From an uncultured Croceitalea sp. (GTDB taxonomy: Bacteria > Bacteroidota > Bacteroidia > Flavobacteriales > Flavobacteriaceae): a stretch of 64,000 bases of DNA. Every line of letters starts with the position of its first letter. Position 1 is the first letter of the stretch. The stretch is taken from NCBI GenBank assembly GCA_947503285.1, contig CANNDD010000005.1:372001-436000 (forward strand), given 5' to 3'. The translations under genes were made by a program, and so were the position numbers. The notes beneath the pieces are model-generated. The model did no database searches. It saw only the letters and a list, made by a program, of their open reading frames with translations, and was not told where the DNA came from. Shown piece after piece: positions 31,631 to 38,840 of the stretch.

Positions 31631-31650
31631 TCAGCAATTCAAGAACATAA

Positions 31651-31676
31651 GGGCCCTTGATTATCAAGGGCCTTTT
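31651..31676 (+). terminator. Terminator of the aconitase gene
   Basis: GGCCCTTGA-TTA-TCAAGGGCC hairpin (31652-31672) followed by TTTT, 21 bp after the aconitase stop. Confidence 0.8.
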
Positions 31677-31696: not shown

Positions 31697-32260
31697 ATGG
31701 CGGTAAAGAAAAAGACTGTTCTTAACATTGTTGTCATTCTTTTTATACTCTCCTTTTTTGTGACCCCTTTAGGGCATTATGGTAAACTTTTTTTGAATAG
31801 GATATTTTCATTCTCACCTTACGTGGTGGCTGAGGCCAATAGAAAGAAGATCACGGACTATGATTGGCGTCTAAAAGATGCCGATTGGAATTTCTTTAAT
31901 TTTCAAAAATCACAGGGGAGGGTTATTCTGGTGAATTTTTGGGCCTCATGGCGATTACCCAGTGAGGCTGAATTAAGCAGTATCCAGAAATTGTATGACA
32001 CTTATAAGGACAAAATGGACTTCTATATCATTACCAATGAAGATCGCCCCCCCGTCGAAGAGTTCATTGCTAAACAAGGATACACTTTTCCTGTTACCTA
32101 TTTGATCATCGGAGATAAATCAGCAGTTAAGATACCTGAGAAACCGCCATATTCTTACCTTATAGACAAAGACGGCTATATTGTTGTTGAACAAGATGGA
32201 ATAGCCAACTGGAATACTGCAACGGTAAAGAAAATTGTGGATGACCTGCTAGCAGAATAG
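31697..32260 (+). CDS. TlpA/ResA-like thioredoxin-fold protein without its CxxC
   Basis: A 187-residue membrane-anchored protein with an N-terminal uncleaved helix (VVILFILSFFVTPLGH) and a TlpA-like thioredoxin domain. The family strand VILVNFWASW is followed by RLPSEAEL where active relatives have CxxC, so both redox cysteines (positions 86 and 89) are Arg and Ser; the Pro between is kept. The rest of the fold (TFPVTYLIIGD, PYSYLIDKDGYIVVEQDG) looks sound. It is therefore not a disulfide oxidoreductase but may bind partners. It ends 1 bp before the crtA-like gene, so the two could be one transcript. Confidence 0.85.
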   Translation: MAVKKKTVLNIVVILFILSFFVTPLGHYGKLFLNRIFSFSPYVVAEANRKKITDYDWRLKDADWNFFNFQKSQGRVILVNFWASWRLPSEAELSSIQKLYDTYKDKMDFYIITNEDRPPVEEFIAKQGYTFPVTYLIIGDKSAVKIPEKPPYSYLIDKDGYIVVEQDGIANWNTATVKKIVDDLLAE

Positions 32261-32261
32261 G

Positions 32262-32960
32262 ATGTCCCAAATAACTACGATATCATTTTTCAGGTTTACT
32301 TCATTTCATACAAAATTATGGGCGTTCTCTATGATGCAATTTGCCCAAGCCGCTTTTTCAAATGCGAAGGGACAAGAGTTCTATAAACTTCTTGGAACGG
32401 GGCGGGATGGTTTTGACCCAAAACCTGACTTTGGGGTTTATGCCGTTTTACAGGTTTGGAAAAGTGAGGAAGCAGCCAATGATTTTTTCAATAATGCCCG
32501 AATCATAAAGAAATACCGAAAGAAAGCTGCGGAATGCTATCAAATCTTTATGCGAAATATCGTAGCGAGGGGGAAATGGGATGGGCAAAATCCTTTTAGA
32601 AAAAGTGATGACCTAGATGATACACTTACTTATGCGGTTATCACCAGAGCGACAATAAAAACAAGGTTTTTATTGAGGTTTTGGGGTTTCGTACCTAAAT
32701 CACAACAAGATTTGAAAACAAATACAGGCTTATTATTTACTAAGGGAATTGGCGAAATACCATTTAAGAATATGGCCACTTTTAGTCTATGGAAGGATTT
32801 GGACTCTTTAAACAAATTTGCCTATCAAACTGAAGGGCATGTGAAGGCCATTGGCAAGACACGTGAATTAGGATGGTATTCTGAGGAGCTATTTTCGCGC
32901 TTTCAACCCTATCGTTCCTCTGGATCCTGGTTTGGTGGTAATCCGTTGGAGAAGGTCTAG
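32262..32960 (+). CDS. crtA: CrtA-like carotenoid oxygenase (spheroidene monooxygenase family)
   Basis: A 232-residue protein of the spheroidene monooxygenase family, recognisable by the N-terminal ITTISFFRFTSFHTKLWAFS, the FYKLLGTGRDGFDPKPDFGV stretch and the C-terminal TRELGWYSEELFSRF. CrtA in purple bacteria adds keto groups at C-2 of acyclic carotenoids; I recall a CrtA-related enzyme in a marine Flavobacterium acting as 2'-hydroxylase in myxol synthesis. That reading fits here, since the adjacent operon has CruF- and CrtD-like genes. It runs toward the crt operon and overlaps the CruF gene by 4 bp at the 3' ends. Confidence 0.85.
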   Translation: MSQITTISFFRFTSFHTKLWAFSMMQFAQAAFSNAKGQEFYKLLGTGRDGFDPKPDFGVYAVLQVWKSEEAANDFFNNARIIKKYRKKAAECYQIFMRNIVARGKWDGQNPFRKSDDLDDTLTYAVITRATIKTRFLLRFWGFVPKSQQDLKTNTGLLFTKGIGEIPFKNMATFSLWKDLDSLNKFAYQTEGHVKAIGKTRELGWYSEELFSRFQPYRSSGSWFGGNPLEKV

Positions 32961-33607
32961 TGCAATGGGAAGAGATAGAAAAAAGCAAAAAATAGCAATT
33001 GGGCCAAGTATAAATGTATAGCAATAGCTTTGTTCCCCTTTGTCCTGGCCTTATGCAGAATGGTTTGCAAGAGCAGGCCTATACCAAACCATGCGAGGTA
33101 ATTGTCTATGGGTACTGCCCCCTTGAATTCCCAAAAGTCAAAAACCGGGGCATTCTTTTCCATTAAAAAATCGAGACCTACCATCAGCGCGGCAGCCACA
33201 ACAATTTTCAACCTTTTTGAAAAACCTATTTTTTTCGAAACTTCAGCAGTGATAAAGGTCAATAAGGCCCAATACGTTCCTATTAAGAAAGGTACGCCAT
33301 CAAATTTAGGCCCTAAATTACGACCATAGGTATAATCGCCGAACAAGATACCATAATTAACACCCAACCACTCCGAAAACATTCCAATGAAAAAAAAGAT
33401 GGCAAATAGTGACCATTGTTTTTTTGTCTTTAATGGAAATAGCCATATGAAGATCAATAGACTTACCGTAAGGTTCAAAGGCGATTTAGTGATGAACCAG
33501 TCTTGATTGCCAAAATAGATTCCGATCACACCTGATACATGGAATAGCCAGATCATGAATATTCCAAGCTTGGTGTTCGCGATTCTTTTGAGGTCTATGT
33601 TAAGCAT
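32957..33607 (-). CDS. cruF: CruF-like carotenoid 1',2'-hydratase
   Basis: A 216-residue integral membrane protein with about seven hydrophobic segments, of the carotenoid biosynthesis family PF04240 (DUF422). Conserved features are FSEWLGVNYGILFGDYTYGR and GVPFLIGTYWALLTFITAEV. CruF adds water to the psi end of gamma-carotene or lycopene to give a 1'-hydroxy group. It is the last gene of the crt operon; its ATG overlaps the CrtD-like stop by 8 bp. Assignment to CruF, and not another member of the family, is inferred from cluster content. Confidence 0.8.
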   Translation of the reverse strand: MLNIDLKRIANTKLGIFMIWLFHVSGVIGIYFGNQDWFITKSPLNLTVSLLIFIWLFPLKTKKQWSLFAIFFFIGMFSEWLGVNYGILFGDYTYGRNLGPKFDGVPFLIGTYWALLTFITAEVSKKIGFSKRLKIVVAAALMVGLDFLMEKNAPVFDFWEFKGAVPIDNYLAWFGIGLLLQTILHKARTKGNKAIAIHLYLAQLLFFAFFYLFPLH

Positions 33608-35069
33608 TCGGTACGAGGTCGTTCACAATTTTAGAAGATAAAAGGCAAAGTGGTATGCCACCCCCAGGATGTACTGAACCTCCGCAAAAATAGAGGTTCT
33701 TGGTTTTAGAACTGAAATTGGGATGCCTTAAGAAAGCAGCGAATTTTGAGTTGCTCGCCGCACCGTACAAGGCCCCACGATAGGAGCTGGTATTTTGCTC
33801 GATCTCAATGGGGTCCAATACAAACTCGGTCTCAATATATTCCTCAATATCCGTGTTCAGGATGGTATTTATTTTTCTTATGACGGATTTTCTTGCCATA
33901 GCTGCCAATTTTCCCCAATCTTGCCCATGGTTTGCCGGAGCATTGATCATCACAAACCAATTTTCACAGCCTTCCGGGGCATCTTCCCGATTTTCTTTAC
34001 TTGTTACGTTGATGTAGACCGTAGTATCTTCAAAGAGGCTTTTCTTGTTGAAAATATGGTCGAACTCCTTTTTATAGTCTTCACTGAACATGATATTGTG
34101 CAAATCGAGCTCAGGAAATGTTTTTGCTATTCCCCAATAAAAGATCAAAGCCGAACTAGAACGTTCTTGGTTTAGTATCTTTCTGGGGTGTTTTATTTCA
34201 GGCAATAGTTTTTTATAGGTCGGATAGACATCCATATTACTGATAACCATATCACCAAATACGGTTTCGGTCCGTAACCGTAGCCCTATTGCTTTTTTGT
34301 TTTCAATTAGTATTTCATCAACGTTGCTATTAAAATGGAACACTATTCCTACATCTAGGGCCAACTGATAAAGTGATTTTGTGATGTTATGCATACCCCC
34401 CTTTGGAAAATAGGTGCCCAAATCCATTTCAAGATGCGGTATCATTGACATAATACCCGGCGTTCGATATGGTGAAGAGCCGTTATACGTGGCGTATCTG
34501 TTAAAAAGTTGAATCAACTTCGGATTTTGAAAATACTGCATGTTGGTGTTATTCATCGTGTTTTGAATACCCATGCCACCTATTCTTAGCAATGCTTTTA
34601 CGGTTTTTTTCGAGAGATAGGTCTGAACTTTGTGCAATGATTTTTCAAGAAAAATGGAGCTTGTCAATTCATATTTTTTCTTATTATCATCAAGATACCT
34701 TTTTATTTGCTTGGCATCTTCGCCGAATAAGATAGCCGCCTTCTCGATAAAATCCTCCTTATCCGATTTTACGGTAAATCGTGTATGGTCTTCCCAAAAG
34801 TAATTGCAGATGGTTTCTTTTTTAATGTATTCAAAATAGGTATCCGGTCTTTTTCCATGCAATTCGAACAATTCGGTTACAAGCCATGGCATGGTGAATA
34901 GGGATGGGCCTAAATCAAATCTATACCCGTTGACTTTTTTTGAGTTTAGCTTTCCACCGGGATAAGAATTTTTTTCGAAAACAAGAACATGATACCCCTT
35001 GGCTTTTAATCGTAGGGCCGTAGCGAGGCCGGCTATTCCGGAACCAATGACCAATGCTGTTTTGGGCAT
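33600..35069 (-). CDS. crtD: CrtI-family desaturase, probably CrtD-like 3',4'-desaturase
   Basis: A 489-residue FAD-dependent carotenoid desaturase. It starts at MPKTALVIGSGIAGLATALR with the dinucleotide-binding fold, has FEKNSYPGGKLNSKKVNGYR and FDLGPSLFTMPWLV, and ends with the family C-terminal NLYFCGGSVHPGGGIPLC. It is the second CrtI-type enzyme in the operon, and in relatives that make saproxanthin or myxol the second copy dehydrogenates 1'-hydroxy carotenoids at 3',4', which fits the downstream CruF gene. The upstream frame to 35114 lies inside crtZ, so I start at 35069, where TAATG couples it to the crtZ stop. Confidence 0.85.
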   Translation of the reverse strand: MPKTALVIGSGIAGLATALRLKAKGYHVLVFEKNSYPGGKLNSKKVNGYRFDLGPSLFTMPWLVTELFELHGKRPDTYFEYIKKETICNYFWEDHTRFTVKSDKEDFIEKAAILFGEDAKQIKRYLDDNKKKYELTSSIFLEKSLHKVQTYLSKKTVKALLRIGGMGIQNTMNNTNMQYFQNPKLIQLFNRYATYNGSSPYRTPGIMSMIPHLEMDLGTYFPKGGMHNITKSLYQLALDVGIVFHFNSNVDEILIENKKAIGLRLRTETVFGDMVISNMDVYPTYKKLLPEIKHPRKILNQERSSSALIFYWGIAKTFPELDLHNIMFSEDYKKEFDHIFNKKSLFEDTTVYINVTSKENREDAPEGCENWFVMINAPANHGQDWGKLAAMARKSVIRKINTILNTDIEEYIETEFVLDPIEIEQNTSSYRGALYGAASNSKFAAFLRHPNFSSKTKNLYFCGGSVHPGGGIPLCLLSSKIVNDLVPNA

Positions 35070-35518
35070 TATTTTTTGAAGTACTTGAATGGAACGAACA
35101 ACATGCCAAAACACTCACCGTCTGTTTTACCGAGATGTTTATGATGCATTTTGTGCGCACGCCTTACCCCTTTGGCATACCAATTATTGGCGTTTCTTAA
35201 AAACTTAAACCGTTGGTGTATAAAAATATCATGAACGAAAAAATATGCAATTCCGTAAGCCAAAATACCAAAGCCCAGTGGCCAACCGTACCAAAAATCA
35301 GTAGTATTGCCAATCATGATCAATGACATACTGACCACCGCATAAAATAGAAAGAAGGCATCGTTGCGTTCAAACCAAGAGTCATGGTCCTTTTTATGAT
35401 GGTCTTTATGCAGGCTCCATAAAAAACCATGCATGATATATTTATGTGTAAACCATGCCATAAACTCCATAATACAAAACGTAGCCAAGAATATGACTAT
35501 CCAAAGAAAAATCTTCAT
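35069..35518 (-). CDS. crtZ: Beta-carotene hydroxylase
   Basis: A 149-residue membrane di-iron hydroxylase that adds 3-hydroxyl groups to beta rings of carotenoids, as in zeaxanthin. Its histidine clusters are complete: THKYIMH (H25, H30), HKDHH (H37, H40, H41), HDIFIH (H96, H101) and HKMHH (H122, H125, H126). Four hydrophobic segments are present. It lies 4 bp after crtB and overlaps the CrtD-like gene start by 1 base. Confidence 0.93.
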   Translation of the reverse strand: MKIFLWIVIFLATFCIMEFMAWFTHKYIMHGFLWSLHKDHHKKDHDSWFERNDAFFLFYAVVSMSLIMIGNTTDFWYGWPLGFGILAYGIAYFFVHDIFIHQRFKFLRNANNWYAKGVRRAHKMHHKHLGKTDGECFGMLFVPFKYFKK

Positions 35519-35522
35519 TCCT

Positions 35523-36362
35523 TTATACCAATTGTAGTTTATAGTTTACATATGATTTGGCCAAGAGCCCGAACTTTTGGTAATTGGGCACCCGAATCCT
35601 TGTATTCTTGATTTCCAATGGTGGCGTTTTTTGGAGTTTTTGCAAGAGCTTATTGTAATATTTATACGCCGTATAGACACCAAATTTTGCTTCACTTGGC
35701 AGTTTTTCGATTCCTTCCAAACCAGAGGCAAAATCGGCCTTTATTTCATCGACTATCCTTTTCTTTGAAGCTTCATCCAATTCCAATAAATTAGTGTTCG
35801 GGAAGTAAGAGCGTTCCAATAGTTCAAAATCAGCTTTTAAATCGCGAAGAAAATTTACTTTTTGAAAGGCTGAGCCCAAGGCCATGGCCGATTCCTTAAG
35901 GGACTCATATTTTTCTTTATCTCCCTTTACAAATACACATAAGCACATAAGCCCTACCACATCTGCAGAACCGTAGATATATTCCTTATACTCAGCAGTG
36001 GTGTTGTATTGTTTTTTTATCAAATCCATACGCATGCTTTTCATAAAGGCGGCTACGAGTTCGAAGGGTATATCATATTGATGGAAAGTCTGTTGAAACG
36101 AATTCAAGATCGGATTCAAACTGATTTTGTACTCAATGGAATTGTGTAGATCTTGCTCGAAGTCGTTGAAAAGTTTCTCTTTGTCATAATCATGAAAAGT
36201 ATCTACGATTTCATCGGCAAATCTTACAAAGCCATAAATGTTATAGATATCCCTTCTAATTGAGGAGCCCAACATTTTAGTCGCCAGGGCGAAAGAAGTA
36301 CTGTACGACTCCGTAACTATTTTACTACAATTATAAGATACCGTATCAAAAATAGATTTCAT
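35523..36362 (-). CDS. crtB: Phytoene synthase
   Basis: A 279-residue prenyltransferase that joins two geranylgeranyl diphosphates to make phytoene, the first committed carotenoid step. Both aspartate-rich Mg2+-binding motifs are present: FADEIVD (residues 49-54) and RDLKADF (173-179), with the SxSF-like STSFALATK near residue 21. Its ATG follows the crtI stop by 1 bp. It could in principle be a squalene synthase relative, but its neighbours make phytoene synthase clear. Confidence 0.94.
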   Translation of the reverse strand: MKSIFDTVSYNCSKIVTESYSTSFALATKMLGSSIRRDIYNIYGFVRFADEIVDTFHDYDKEKLFNDFEQDLHNSIEYKISLNPILNSFQQTFHQYDIPFELVAAFMKSMRMDLIKKQYNTTAEYKEYIYGSADVVGLMCLCVFVKGDKEKYESLKESAMALGSAFQKVNFLRDLKADFELLERSYFPNTNLLELDEASKKRIVDEIKADFASGLEGIEKLPSEAKFGVYTAYKYYNKLLQKLQKTPPLEIKNTRIRVPNYQKFGLLAKSYVNYKLQLV

Positions 36363-36363
36363 T

Positions 36364-37821
36364 TTAAGCGTATTTTTTAATAATCAAATCAGAGACCAAC
36401 TTACCCGAGATCAATGACGGGGGAACACCTGGTCCCGGCACGGTCAGTTGTCCGGTGAAATAAAGATCGTTTACTTTCTTGCTTTTCAGGCCAGGCCTTA
36501 AAAAAGCGGTTTGTGTTAGTGTATTGGCCATGCCATAGGCATTACCCTTGTACGAATTGTATTGTTCCACAAAATCGTTGACACAAAAGCTTTCCTTAAA
36601 TATAATATTATTTCTGACCTCTTGCCCGGTTCTTTTCTCAAATCGGTTCATAATAATATCAAAATATTGATTTCTCAATGCCTCGGTGTCTTCTAAATCT
36701 GGGGCTATGGGGATTAGAAAAAAGCCCGTTTCAAAACCGGGGGGCGCCATACTTTCATCCGTTATTGATGGAAAGTTGGCATAGAATAAGGGTTCTGTCG
36801 GCCACTGGGGCTCATCATATATTTCTTCGGCATGCTTTTCAAAATCCGTGTCAAAAAAAAGATTATGATGTTGAATGTTTTTTAATTTCTTGTCAAAGCC
36901 AACATAAAATAATAGTGAAGACGGGGCGTAGGTCTTTTTATCCCAGTATTTTTCAGAGTACTGGCGGTATTTTTGATCGAGTAATGTTTCTGAATGGTGA
37001 TAATCGGCCCCACTGATCACAATATCGGCTGCAATACTCTTTCCATTACATTCAATTCCCGTTGTTTTTCCATTCACAACCTCGATTTTCTCCACAGGGG
37101 AATCCACGTTTATTTGAACACCCAACTCCCCTGCAAGTTTGGCCATGGCTTTGATGATTTCATACATGCCACCTTTGGGGTGCCATGTACCGAGGCCAAA
37201 ATCGGCAAAATTCATGAAGCTATAAAAAGATGGGGTTTTACTTGGTTTCGCCCCCAAAAACAACACAGGGAATTCAAGTGTCGAAATCAGCTTAGGGTTA
37301 TCAAATCGTTTTCGTACCTCTTGACTTATACTTTTAAAAAATTGGTCAACTCGCATAACGGTTTCCTTTGTTACCAATTCAAGTGGCGAAAGGCCAGGTC
37401 GCAAAACGATTTTGTTGATGGCAATGTCGTAGTTTTGCTGTGCCTTATCGATAAAATCCCTCAAATGGGCACCGCTCCCAGATTCTATGCGTTCAAACTC
37501 ATTGCATATTTTTGACATGGAGTCACCAATAGTGATTACATCGTCTGAGAAGAATATTTTATAAGCAGGGTCGAGTTTGTCGAGTTGGTAAAAATCTGAT
37601 GTCTTTTTATTGAAATCATTGAAAAATTTTTCAAAGATGTCGGGCATCCAATACCAGCTCGGGCCAATATCAAAAGTAAACCCTTCTTTTTTAAGCTGTC
37701 TAGCCCTGCCACCAACAGTGGGGTTTTTTTCGTAAATGGCTACATCATAACCCGCATTGGCAAGATAGCATGCCACTGACAATGATGAAAAGCCTGAACC
37801 GATTACGACTATTTTTTTCAT
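36364..37821 (-). CDS. crtI: Phytoene desaturase
   Basis: A 485-residue FAD-dependent enzyme that turns phytoene into lycopene through several desaturations. The start MKKIVVIGSGFSSLSVACYL shows the dinucleotide-binding fold, with YEKNPTVGGRARQLKKEGFT, FDIGPSWYWMPD, and the C-terminal LYFTGQLTVPGPGVPPSLIS being CrtI-family hallmarks. A start at 37821 is used because the frame upstream runs inside the regulator gene and shows no family similarity. It follows the regulator by 14 bp and crtB by 1 bp, so all are in one operon. Confidence 0.95.
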   Translation of the reverse strand: MKKIVVIGSGFSSLSVACYLANAGYDVAIYEKNPTVGGRARQLKKEGFTFDIGPSWYWMPDIFEKFFNDFNKKTSDFYQLDKLDPAYKIFFSDDVITIGDSMSKICNEFERIESGSGAHLRDFIDKAQQNYDIAINKIVLRPGLSPLELVTKETVMRVDQFFKSISQEVRKRFDNPKLISTLEFPVLFLGAKPSKTPSFYSFMNFADFGLGTWHPKGGMYEIIKAMAKLAGELGVQINVDSPVEKIEVVNGKTTGIECNGKSIAADIVISGADYHHSETLLDQKYRQYSEKYWDKKTYAPSSLLFYVGFDKKLKNIQHHNLFFDTDFEKHAEEIYDEPQWPTEPLFYANFPSITDESMAPPGFETGFFLIPIAPDLEDTEALRNQYFDIIMNRFEKRTGQEVRNNIIFKESFCVNDFVEQYNSYKGNAYGMANTLTQTAFLRPGLKSKKVNDLYFTGQLTVPGPGVPPSLISGKLVSDLIIKKYA

Positions 37822-37835
37822 ACCAGTATAGCCTA

Positions 37836-38738
37836 TCAGCCTAGAATATTTGTAAGTTTTTCGATAGAACTGAATGTTCTGACTTGTTCTGGAAGGCTTT
37901 CTTGGCCAAGATGTTGTACTTGATGACCCAAAATCCAAAGATGTGAATTGCCAGCTTCATTTAAAGTCTTGGTAAATGTTTTGATATACTTCCCAATTTC
38001 GTCTTTCGTCGGAGAGACCGTGAAATAGGAAATAAAGTGTAAATTATCGTAATATTTCAGTAAGTCGACAAGGTTTTCTATAGGCATTGTCTGGCCCAAA
38101 TAAATGGATTTATACCCTTTCAGGATAATCTCGTAATTTAAATACAGCAGCCCCAGTTCGTGGATTTCATTTTCGGGTAAGAACAAAACGAATACCTTAT
38201 CTTTTCTCGTGGGCTCGATGATCTGTAACTTTTCAGTATTAATATAGATTTTTTGTTTGATCAAATTGGTTATGAAGTGCTCGTGCGATGGGCTGATCGT
38301 GTCTGTTTGCCATAACAGGCCTAGTTCATTTAAAAGCGGTATAAACACTTCGTTGAAAATATCGCGAAACGACCTTTCCGCTAGAAGACTGTTGTACGTA
38401 TTAAAGAACAATGTTTGATCGAAGTTGATCATTGAAAGTTTGAATGCATTGATAGCATGACTTTTTTCACTGTTTTTCGCCACAATTTCCCTTACGATAA
38501 CCGGTATTTCGCTTTCTGGAAGTTTTGCGATTTTTGAGATCTTGTAACCATTGTGATACAACAAGGTGATGTTCAATAGCTTTTGAAGACTCTTTAAACT
38601 ATAGGTTCTGATGTTGGTCGATGTTCTTTCTGGTGAGAACAAGCTGTATCTTTTCTCCCAAATACGTATGGTGTGTGCTTTGATTCCGGATAGATTTTCC
38701 ATATCCCGAATACTGAATAATTTTTTTACATTGTTCAT
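37836..38738 (-). CDS. MerR-type regulator with B12-binding photoreceptor domain (CarH/LitR-like)
   Basis: A 300-residue regulator in two parts. The N-terminal MerR HTH (LFSIRDMENLSGIKAHTIRI, WEKRYSLFSPERT) binds DNA; the C-terminal part has a helical bundle and a Rossmann-like cobalamin domain. In CarH photoreceptors adenosylcobalamin is capped by a Wx9EH motif and held by ExHxxG; both are here: W143 to E153-H154, and E191-I-H193-E-L-G196. As I recall, the His right after the Trp is the upper ligand after light exposure in Thermus CarH; here it is Gln144. It is the first gene of the crt operon and is likely its repressor, relieved by light. Confidence 0.87.
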   Translation of the reverse strand: MNNVKKLFSIRDMENLSGIKAHTIRIWEKRYSLFSPERTSTNIRTYSLKSLQKLLNITLLYHNGYKISKIAKLPESEIPVIVREIVAKNSEKSHAINAFKLSMINFDQTLFFNTYNSLLAERSFRDIFNEVFIPLLNELGLLWQTDTISPSHEHFITNLIKQKIYINTEKLQIIEPTRKDKVFVLFLPENEIHELGLLYLNYEIILKGYKSIYLGQTMPIENLVDLLKYYDNLHFISYFTVSPTKDEIGKYIKTFTKTLNEAGNSHLWILGHQVQHLGQESLPEQVRTFSSIEKLTNILG

Positions 38739-38759
38739 TTTTTCAGTAAAATCATTAAA

Positions 38760-38767
38760 CAAATTTA
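38760..38767 (-). promoter_or_regulatory. -7 box of the crt operon
   Basis: TAAATTTG on the minus strand, 21 bp before the regulator ATG at 38738. The longer start at 38762 falls inside the box, so the shorter protein is preferred. A TTG at normal distance is missing, as may be expected for a regulated promoter. Confidence 0.5.
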
Positions 38768-38840
38768 CAATTAATATCGTAGCATAGGTATAAGCAACAG
38801 TTAAAATTTATAGAATGGACCTTAATTCTGTTTGGCGCAT

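Follow-up and report, generated by a model that had tools for sequence, protein, structure and literature searches.

The carotenoid gene cluster

We analyzed a 64,000-nucleotide stretch of DNA from an uncultured Croceitalea sp. of the family Flavobacteriaceae (assembly GCA_947503285.1, contig CANNDD010000005.1, positions 372,001 to 436,000 of the forward strand). We call this stretch the window; it contains a cluster of genes for carotenoid biosynthesis and belongs to a genome of 4.34 Mb in 29 contigs. Six genes occupy the minus strand from 32957 to 38738 in the order MerR regulator (37836-38738), crtI (phytoene desaturase, 36364-37821), crtB (phytoene synthase, 35523-36362), crtZ (beta-ring 3-hydroxylase, 35069-35518), crtD (1'-hydroxycarotenoid 3',4'-desaturase, 33600-35069) and cruF (carotenoid 1',2'-hydratase, 32957-33607). 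By their coordinates, the regulator and crtI are separated by 14 bp, crtI and crtB by 1 bp, and crtB and crtZ by 4 bp, while crtZ overlaps crtD by 1 bp and crtD overlaps cruF by 8 bp. A seventh gene on the plus strand, crtA (32262-32960), codes for a predicted psi-end 2'-hydroxylase of the CrtA family (CrtA-OH) and meets cruF tail to tail, with 4 bp shared between their 3' ends. All seven genes have intact reading frames with an ATG start and a single stop. An earlier note on this DNA had described a tight minus-strand operon with crtA converging on it, and the coordinates and reading frames bear this description out. A thioredoxin-like gene (31697-32260, plus strand) ends 1 bp before the start of crtA. 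Because of this spacing, crtA probably belongs to a transcription unit separate from the crtI-cruF operon and is likely cotranscribed with the thioredoxin-like gene.

Assignment of the carotenoid enzymes

We assigned gene families through Pfam and NCBIfam profile searches with curated cut-offs. CrtD scored 789 bits against the CrtD model NF042421 (cut-off 500) and 643 bits against PDB 4REP, an entry titled 'Gamma-carotene desaturase'. CrtI scored 397 bits against TIGR02734, for which the CrtI-family cut-off is 238, and 733 bits against NF058655. We also built a maximum likelihood tree of 37 rows. Two of them are the window proteins, and the others were taken from fetched loci and records of Roseobacter, Pantoea and Halocatena; those of Roseobacter and Pantoea sit on long branches, and their placement is unsure. 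The window CrtI grouped with flavobacterial CrtI and the window CrtD with flavobacterial CrtD, Nonlabens xiamenensis having a member in both groups. The two desaturases are thus distinct, as had been proposed: they fall in separate clades and not both among phytoene desaturases.

CrtB is the sole match to its family in the genome (160 bits to Pfam SQS_PSY, over the cut-off). It is 67% identical to CrtB of N. xiamenensis, the species to which all Nonlabens protein identities given here refer. CrtI and CrtB are 84% and 90% identical to their counterparts in Croceitalea dokdonensis DOKDO 023. CrtB and CrtI together are said to account for lycopene in Nonlabens spongiae (PMC11855829).

No Pfam or NCBIfam model matched CrtZ at an E-value of 0.001. 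The protein aligned at 92 bits with the product of the gene that follows crtB in Pantoea ananatis, which is annotated as sterol desaturase family and which we take to be CrtZ. It contains the histidine boxes and is 70% identical to the N. xiamenensis homolog. CruF is the only CruF match in the genome (Pfam PF04240, 83 bits, cut-off 25) and is 40% identical to CruF of N. xiamenensis. A search for a hydratase of the CrtC type gave no match in the genome; the control also gave no match, so the absence of CrtC is not proven.

CrtA is likewise the sole match of its kind in the genome and is 55% identical to CrtA of N. xiamenensis. His193 is conserved in all 15 sequences compared, including that of Roseobacter CrtA, and is a candidate heme ligand. 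The predicted structure (13 sequences, mean pLDDT 84.7) is a tandem alpha+beta barrel. Among the best 50 Foldseek rows, the top TM-scores (0.52-0.62) all came from aldoxime dehydratases that stood lower in the list; query TM-scores were 0.34-0.43 for the 20 best rows by E-value. Aldoxime dehydratases are heme enzymes. The CrtA of purple bacteria is reported not to be a P450, to have a five-coordinated heme and to have descended from flavobacterial crtA-OH (PMC10604819). Membership in this family and 38% identity to Roseobacter CrtA could indicate that the window enzyme is a 2'-ketolase, as in purple bacteria, and yields a 2'-oxo carotenoid. We regard this as very improbable. The protein falls below the cut-off of the spheroidene monooxygenase model NF045923 (219 bits against 300) and is closer to the Nonlabens CrtA, and the N. 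spongiae form yielded hydroxylated deoxymyxol (PMC11855829). We also looked for other ketolases. CrtW belongs to PF00487, and no CrtW-like ketolase was seen in the genome, where the only two PF00487 proteins, of 366 and 349 amino acids, are presumably lipid-desaturase-like and AlkB-like, respectively. There is no CrtO candidate in the genome, since a search with CrtD matched only CrtD, CrtI and one weak N-terminal hit.

Comparison with known myxol clusters and predicted product

We compared the window with the myxol clusters of N. spongiae JCM 13191 and Flavobacterium sp. P99-3, in which crtA-OH is also reversed and crtE lies outside the cluster (PMC11855829). The N. spongiae cluster, which contains the same genes plus crtY, was dissected gene by gene in Escherichia coli, and crtE was assigned by complementation. 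In that system, CruF performs the 1',2'-hydration, CrtD the 3',4'-desaturation, CrtA-OH the 2'-hydroxylation and CrtZ the ring hydroxylation that lead to myxol, and the strain is reported to contain myxol at about 90 mol%, along with some zeaxanthin (PMC11855829). Myxol of N. spongiae is reported with absorption maxima of 449, 473 and 504 nm and an [M+H-H2O]+ ion near m/z 567.4. For CrtA-OH and CrtD of Flavobacterium sp. P99-3, the same paper cites Rahlert 2009 and Teramoto 2004. The window resembles this type in keeping crtI, crtB, crtZ, crtD, cruF and crtA-OH in one cluster and in having a lycopene cyclase and a candidate geranylgeranyl diphosphate (GGPP) synthase in the genome. It differs in that crtY, which lies inside the N. 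spongiae cluster, is on another contig. In Algoriphagus, cruF and crtD have been predicted to serve the synthesis of the one-ring carotenoid flexixanthin, together with a CrtYcd cyclase (PMC10784355).

If the window homologs perform the same steps as the N. spongiae enzymes, as we infer, a polyprenyl synthase encoded next to crtY would supply GGPP, CrtB would convert it to phytoene and CrtI would desaturate phytoene to lycopene. CrtY would form one beta-ring, and hydration of the other end by CruF would block a second ring. CrtD would then introduce the 3',4' double bond, CrtA-OH would add the 2'-hydroxyl, and hydroxylation of the ring at C3 by CrtZ would complete myxol, an orange pigment with one ring and the predicted dominant product. 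Lycopene that escapes CruF would become beta-carotene and then zeaxanthin, or be cleaved as beta-carotene by a Blh-type enzyme to retinal for proteorhodopsin.

The cluster is a further instance of the published myxol pathway. We consider it highly probable that the window holds a myxol operon that a CarH-like regulator controls, the crtA-OH gene belonging to a converging unit and the lycopene cyclase and a candidate GGPP synthase being encoded apart. Homology to the tested enzymes makes myxol most likely the main product. The earlier note had proposed monocyclic xanthophylls of the saproxanthin/myxol type, a class that agrees with the enzymes expressed for N. spongiae (PMC11855829). We narrow the proposal to myxol, because crtA is present; saproxanthin is the product expected if crtA were absent. 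Saproxanthin could still predominate if crtA were weakly used, given that crtA belongs to another transcription unit, 1 bp behind the thioredoxin-like gene and converging on the operon. We think this improbable, as crtA is intact and its product is 55% identical to the N. xiamenensis protein. The crtA-OH gene of N. spongiae is also reversed, yet that strain reaches its ~90 mol% of myxol (PMC11855829).

The lycopene cyclase is encoded outside the operon

The enzyme set proposed in the earlier note stands, but that note mentioned no cyclase. A ring requires one, and the operon has none: no open reading frame in the operon matches CrtY. The sole clear CrtY of the genome is encoded on another contig (G000:C2:87491-88627; PF05834, 171 bits). 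Here and below, G-numbers denote family genomes in our survey, G000 being the window's own genome, and L-numbers denote fetched loci. Two further PF05834 matches in the genome lie below the cut-off (22.8 and 20 bits). A polyprenyl synthase gene converges on crtY and shares 4 bp with it at the crtY stop codon (L002:1489-3629). This synthase scores below every NCBIfam cut-off and is a candidate for GGPP synthase (crtE). A crtE homolog also converges on crtY in G077 and G288. A cyclase of the CrtYc/d type (PF18916) gave no match in the genome, and the same search matched 3 of 14 control genomes.

We surveyed 299 genomes of the family for profile matches to CrtA, CruF and CrtY, which were found in 45, 52 and 147 genomes, respectively, and we compared the window genome's CrtY with others from this set. 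It is 56-59% identical to CrtY of the CruF-bearing genomes G229, G026, G056 and G126. Identity is 34-40% to the products of crtY genes that sit between cruF and crtA (G174, G010 and G242) and 37-53% to those of crtY genes beside crtA/cruF in other layouts (G149, G009, G069, G220, G283, G177, G288 and G077). We infer that this is a general, probably two-ring cyclase and that CruF would divert some of the flux toward monocyclic products.

An alternative is that zeaxanthin is the main pigment, which would be the case if CrtY closed both ends of lycopene faster than CruF hydrates them, the psi-end genes then forming a minor branch. Consistent with this alternative, 99 of the 147 CrtY-matching genomes have no CruF match, the genome's Blh-type dioxygenase and rhodopsin (described below) require beta-carotene, and N. 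marinus is reported to contain 58 mol% zeaxanthin and 40% myxol (PMC11855829). We nevertheless consider a predominance of zeaxanthin unlikely. CrtY of N. spongiae expressed alone in E. coli gave mainly beta-carotene, but together with CruF it gave mainly 1'-hydroxy-gamma-carotene (PMC11855829), and the complete psi-end gene set is conserved in many genomes.

Several results weigh against myxol as the main product of the pathway outlined above. The window genome's CrtY scores below its NCBIfam equivalog cut-off, shares just 32% identity with the CrtY encoded in the N. xiamenensis cluster, and is 58-59% identical to CrtY of G201 and G236, both of which lack a CruF match; the share of two-ring product could be large. 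In one surveyed genome, G166, CrtA and CruF were matched without any CrtY. CruF is below all three NCBIfam CruF cut-offs that it matched (best 55 against 155 bits), as CrtA is below that of NF045923, and crtA lies outside the transcript of the operon. Finally, CrtI exceeds the cut-off of an NCBIfam model named 'bifunctional phytoene desaturase/3,4-desaturase'. Given this label, CrtI and CrtD may overlap in 3',4'-desaturation, and CrtD is perhaps not the sole enzyme for that step.

Distribution across Flavobacteriaceae

All 45 CrtA-bearing genomes in the survey also have a CruF match, an association whose probability would be 2e-46 under independence of the genomes, an assumption that does not hold. 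CrtY was matched in 44 of the 45. Seven genomes have CruF without CrtA (G077, G086, G092, G129, G177, G288 and G295). The exact gene order of the window, its own genome included, recurs in 14 of the 45 CrtA neighborhoods, and G150 adds a copy with CrtD in two frames. The arrangement is beyond chance, because the same order is found in these 15 of 45 genomes. In three neighborhoods crtY stands between cruF and crtA, and the remaining 27 have other layouts or CrtA apart. The named loci, the best 80 of 260 found, overlap partially with the survey; 36 of these 80 have the window order, as does one more in which CrtD is split over two frames, and another is cut by a contig end. C. dokdonensis, Maribacter, Flagellimonas, Muriicola and Croceivirga share the identical gene order and likewise lack crtY there, though some of them differ in keeping a second, canonical thioredoxin before crtA.

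The less ordinary features of the window genome are a cyclase outside the operon and a CarH-like regulator that lacks the bis-His ligand. A cyclase gene apart from crtA/cruF is the commoner state among the CrtA-bearing genomes (36 of 45); crtY lies within 5 kb of crtA/cruF in eight and was not found in one. Because crtY is not beside crtA/cruF in those 36 genomes, the choice between one and two rings may be set by CruF acting against a cyclase made elsewhere.

G086 (L094) has the same operon from the MerR gene to cruF, yet CrtA was not matched in this genome, and the thioredoxin genes directly adjoin cruF. We predict that G086 makes a saproxanthin-type pigment. The window genome and G086 form a natural pair for addressing the role of CrtA-OH.

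Two side observations concern gene structure and layout. At L057:6672-8155 and L161:11333-12817, crtD is in two reading frames, which may reflect real breaks or sequencing errors. Several family members with small genomes (e.g., L061, L063, L065 and L068) have a different layout, crtA-crtD-cruF on a single strand, often with crtI nearby.

A CarH-like regulator heads the operon

The first gene of the operon codes for a CarH/LitR-like MerR regulator with a B12-binding domain, as judged from Pfam matches (MerR_1 and B12-binding_2), a structural model and motifs. The ATG at 38738 is favored as its start and is more likely than an upstream TTG; a methionine followed by NNVK or NNIK is found there in 52 of 59 loci. 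In searches with an AlphaFold model (33 aligned sequences chosen from loci sharing the common start, mean pLDDT 82.9), Thermus CarH supplied the first 22 of the best 50 PDB rows, and rows for the isolated CarH cobalamin-binding domain gave target TM-scores of ~0.7.

CarH homologs have been defined by Wx9EH and the full motif ExHx2G-x41-SxV/T-x22-27-GG (PMC8156234). We examined these motifs in 60 MerR loci. After excluding L185 (162 bits), the remaining 59 all scored above 250 bits and, with five genomes doubled, represented 54 distinct relatives. Wx9EH is present in 53 of the 54, the other having EQ, and ExHxxG is present in 53, the other having ExHxxS. In 50, the serine stands at x40 within S[YF][FL]T[VI]; four were unmatched by this pattern. 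The second glycine of the GG motif is found in none. Since the motif beyond ExHxxG is degenerate, the regulator qualifies under the published definition as CarH-like but not as a clear CarH.

The regulator shares its fold, Wx9EH and ExHxxG with Thermus CarH (PDB 5C8D) but differs in the partial state of the rest of the B12 motif and in the residue after the tryptophan. This residue is glutamine in all 54 distinct relatives, whereas Thermus CarH has His132 in the alignment. The H132A variant of Thermus CarH is reported to remain mostly tetrameric in light, with an earlier report of dissociation also noted (PMC10442372). CtMerR has arginine at this position and still dissociates in light, and SasPcob has glutamine (PMC11796333). 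Glutamine at the His132 position is compatible with a light response, because other light-responsive proteins also lack the histidine. The genome encodes an adenosyltransferase (PF01923). A set of CarH variants without His132, to which this regulator belongs, offers a way to test whether the bis-His state is required.

We tentatively suggest that the myxol operon of Flavobacteriaceae is gated by a CarH-like branch, with glutamine for His132 and a degenerate GG, that might use a different cobalt light chemistry or act as a pure B12 sensor. Such control could couple a pigment that may act as a rhodopsin partner to light or to the availability of the vitamin. We found no paper on carotenoid control by CarH- or cobalamin-type MerR proteins in Bacteroidetes, in a search that left out most subscription journals. 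Zeaxanthin is reported to be light-induced in a Chryseobacterium, with a LitR-like regulator put forward as speculation (PMC7064467).

We aligned the regions upstream of the MerR gene in 50 sequences whose MerR protein scored above 440 bits, five genomes being counted twice. TAnnTTTG, the consensus of the -7 promoter element in Bacteroidota, occurs in all 50, and its spacing to the start is identical in 46; base shuffles gave a mean of 3.3 and a maximum of 8 of 50 sequences. In the window, TAAATTTG (38760-38767, minus strand) is likely the -7 promoter element of the operon. Above it lies AAATTTTAAC (38800-38809, minus strand), a conserved repeat and possible regulator site, and similar repeats stand above TAnnTTTG in 32 of the 50 sequences. 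A scan for sigma-70-type promoters was set aside, as it found 24 sites against 28.7 in shuffles.

Rhodopsin setting

The genome has one rhodopsin match, divergent from a gene for a Blh-type beta-carotene dioxygenase (L009:1477-3212, G000:C8). The rhodopsin scored 417 bits against PDB 9jou/9jov, titled proteorhodopsin. Because it stands beside the gene for a retinal-forming dioxygenase, beta-carotene is probably also made. Carotenoids reportedly speed the rhodopsin photocycle, according to a preprint cited by the N. spongiae myxol paper. We treat a link between myxol and rhodopsin as a lead only. By eye, helix F of the rhodopsin reads YMAGTT, near the KR1 pattern described for rhodopsins that bind 3-hydroxy-carotenoids (PMC12308411).

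Neighboring genes

The thioredoxin-like protein encoded at 31697-32260, recognized by Redoxin/ResA-like matches, lacks the CxxC cysteines and has WASWRLPS in place of WCxxC. The order aconitase-thioredoxin-crtA recurs in many relatives. In many, a WASWRLPS-like copy and a canonical copy with WCPPC both lie between the aconitase gene and crtA, and G086 retains both copies without crtA. A terminator-like hairpin lies between aconitase and the thioredoxin-crtA pair (31649-31675, plus strand); terminator-like sites overall were not enriched (10 found against 9.1 in shuffles). Outside the family, a CrtA-like gene annotated as hypothetical is present on a plasmid of Deinococcus taeanensis (L121:7833-8618), with no named carotenoid gene in the 16.6 kb shown.

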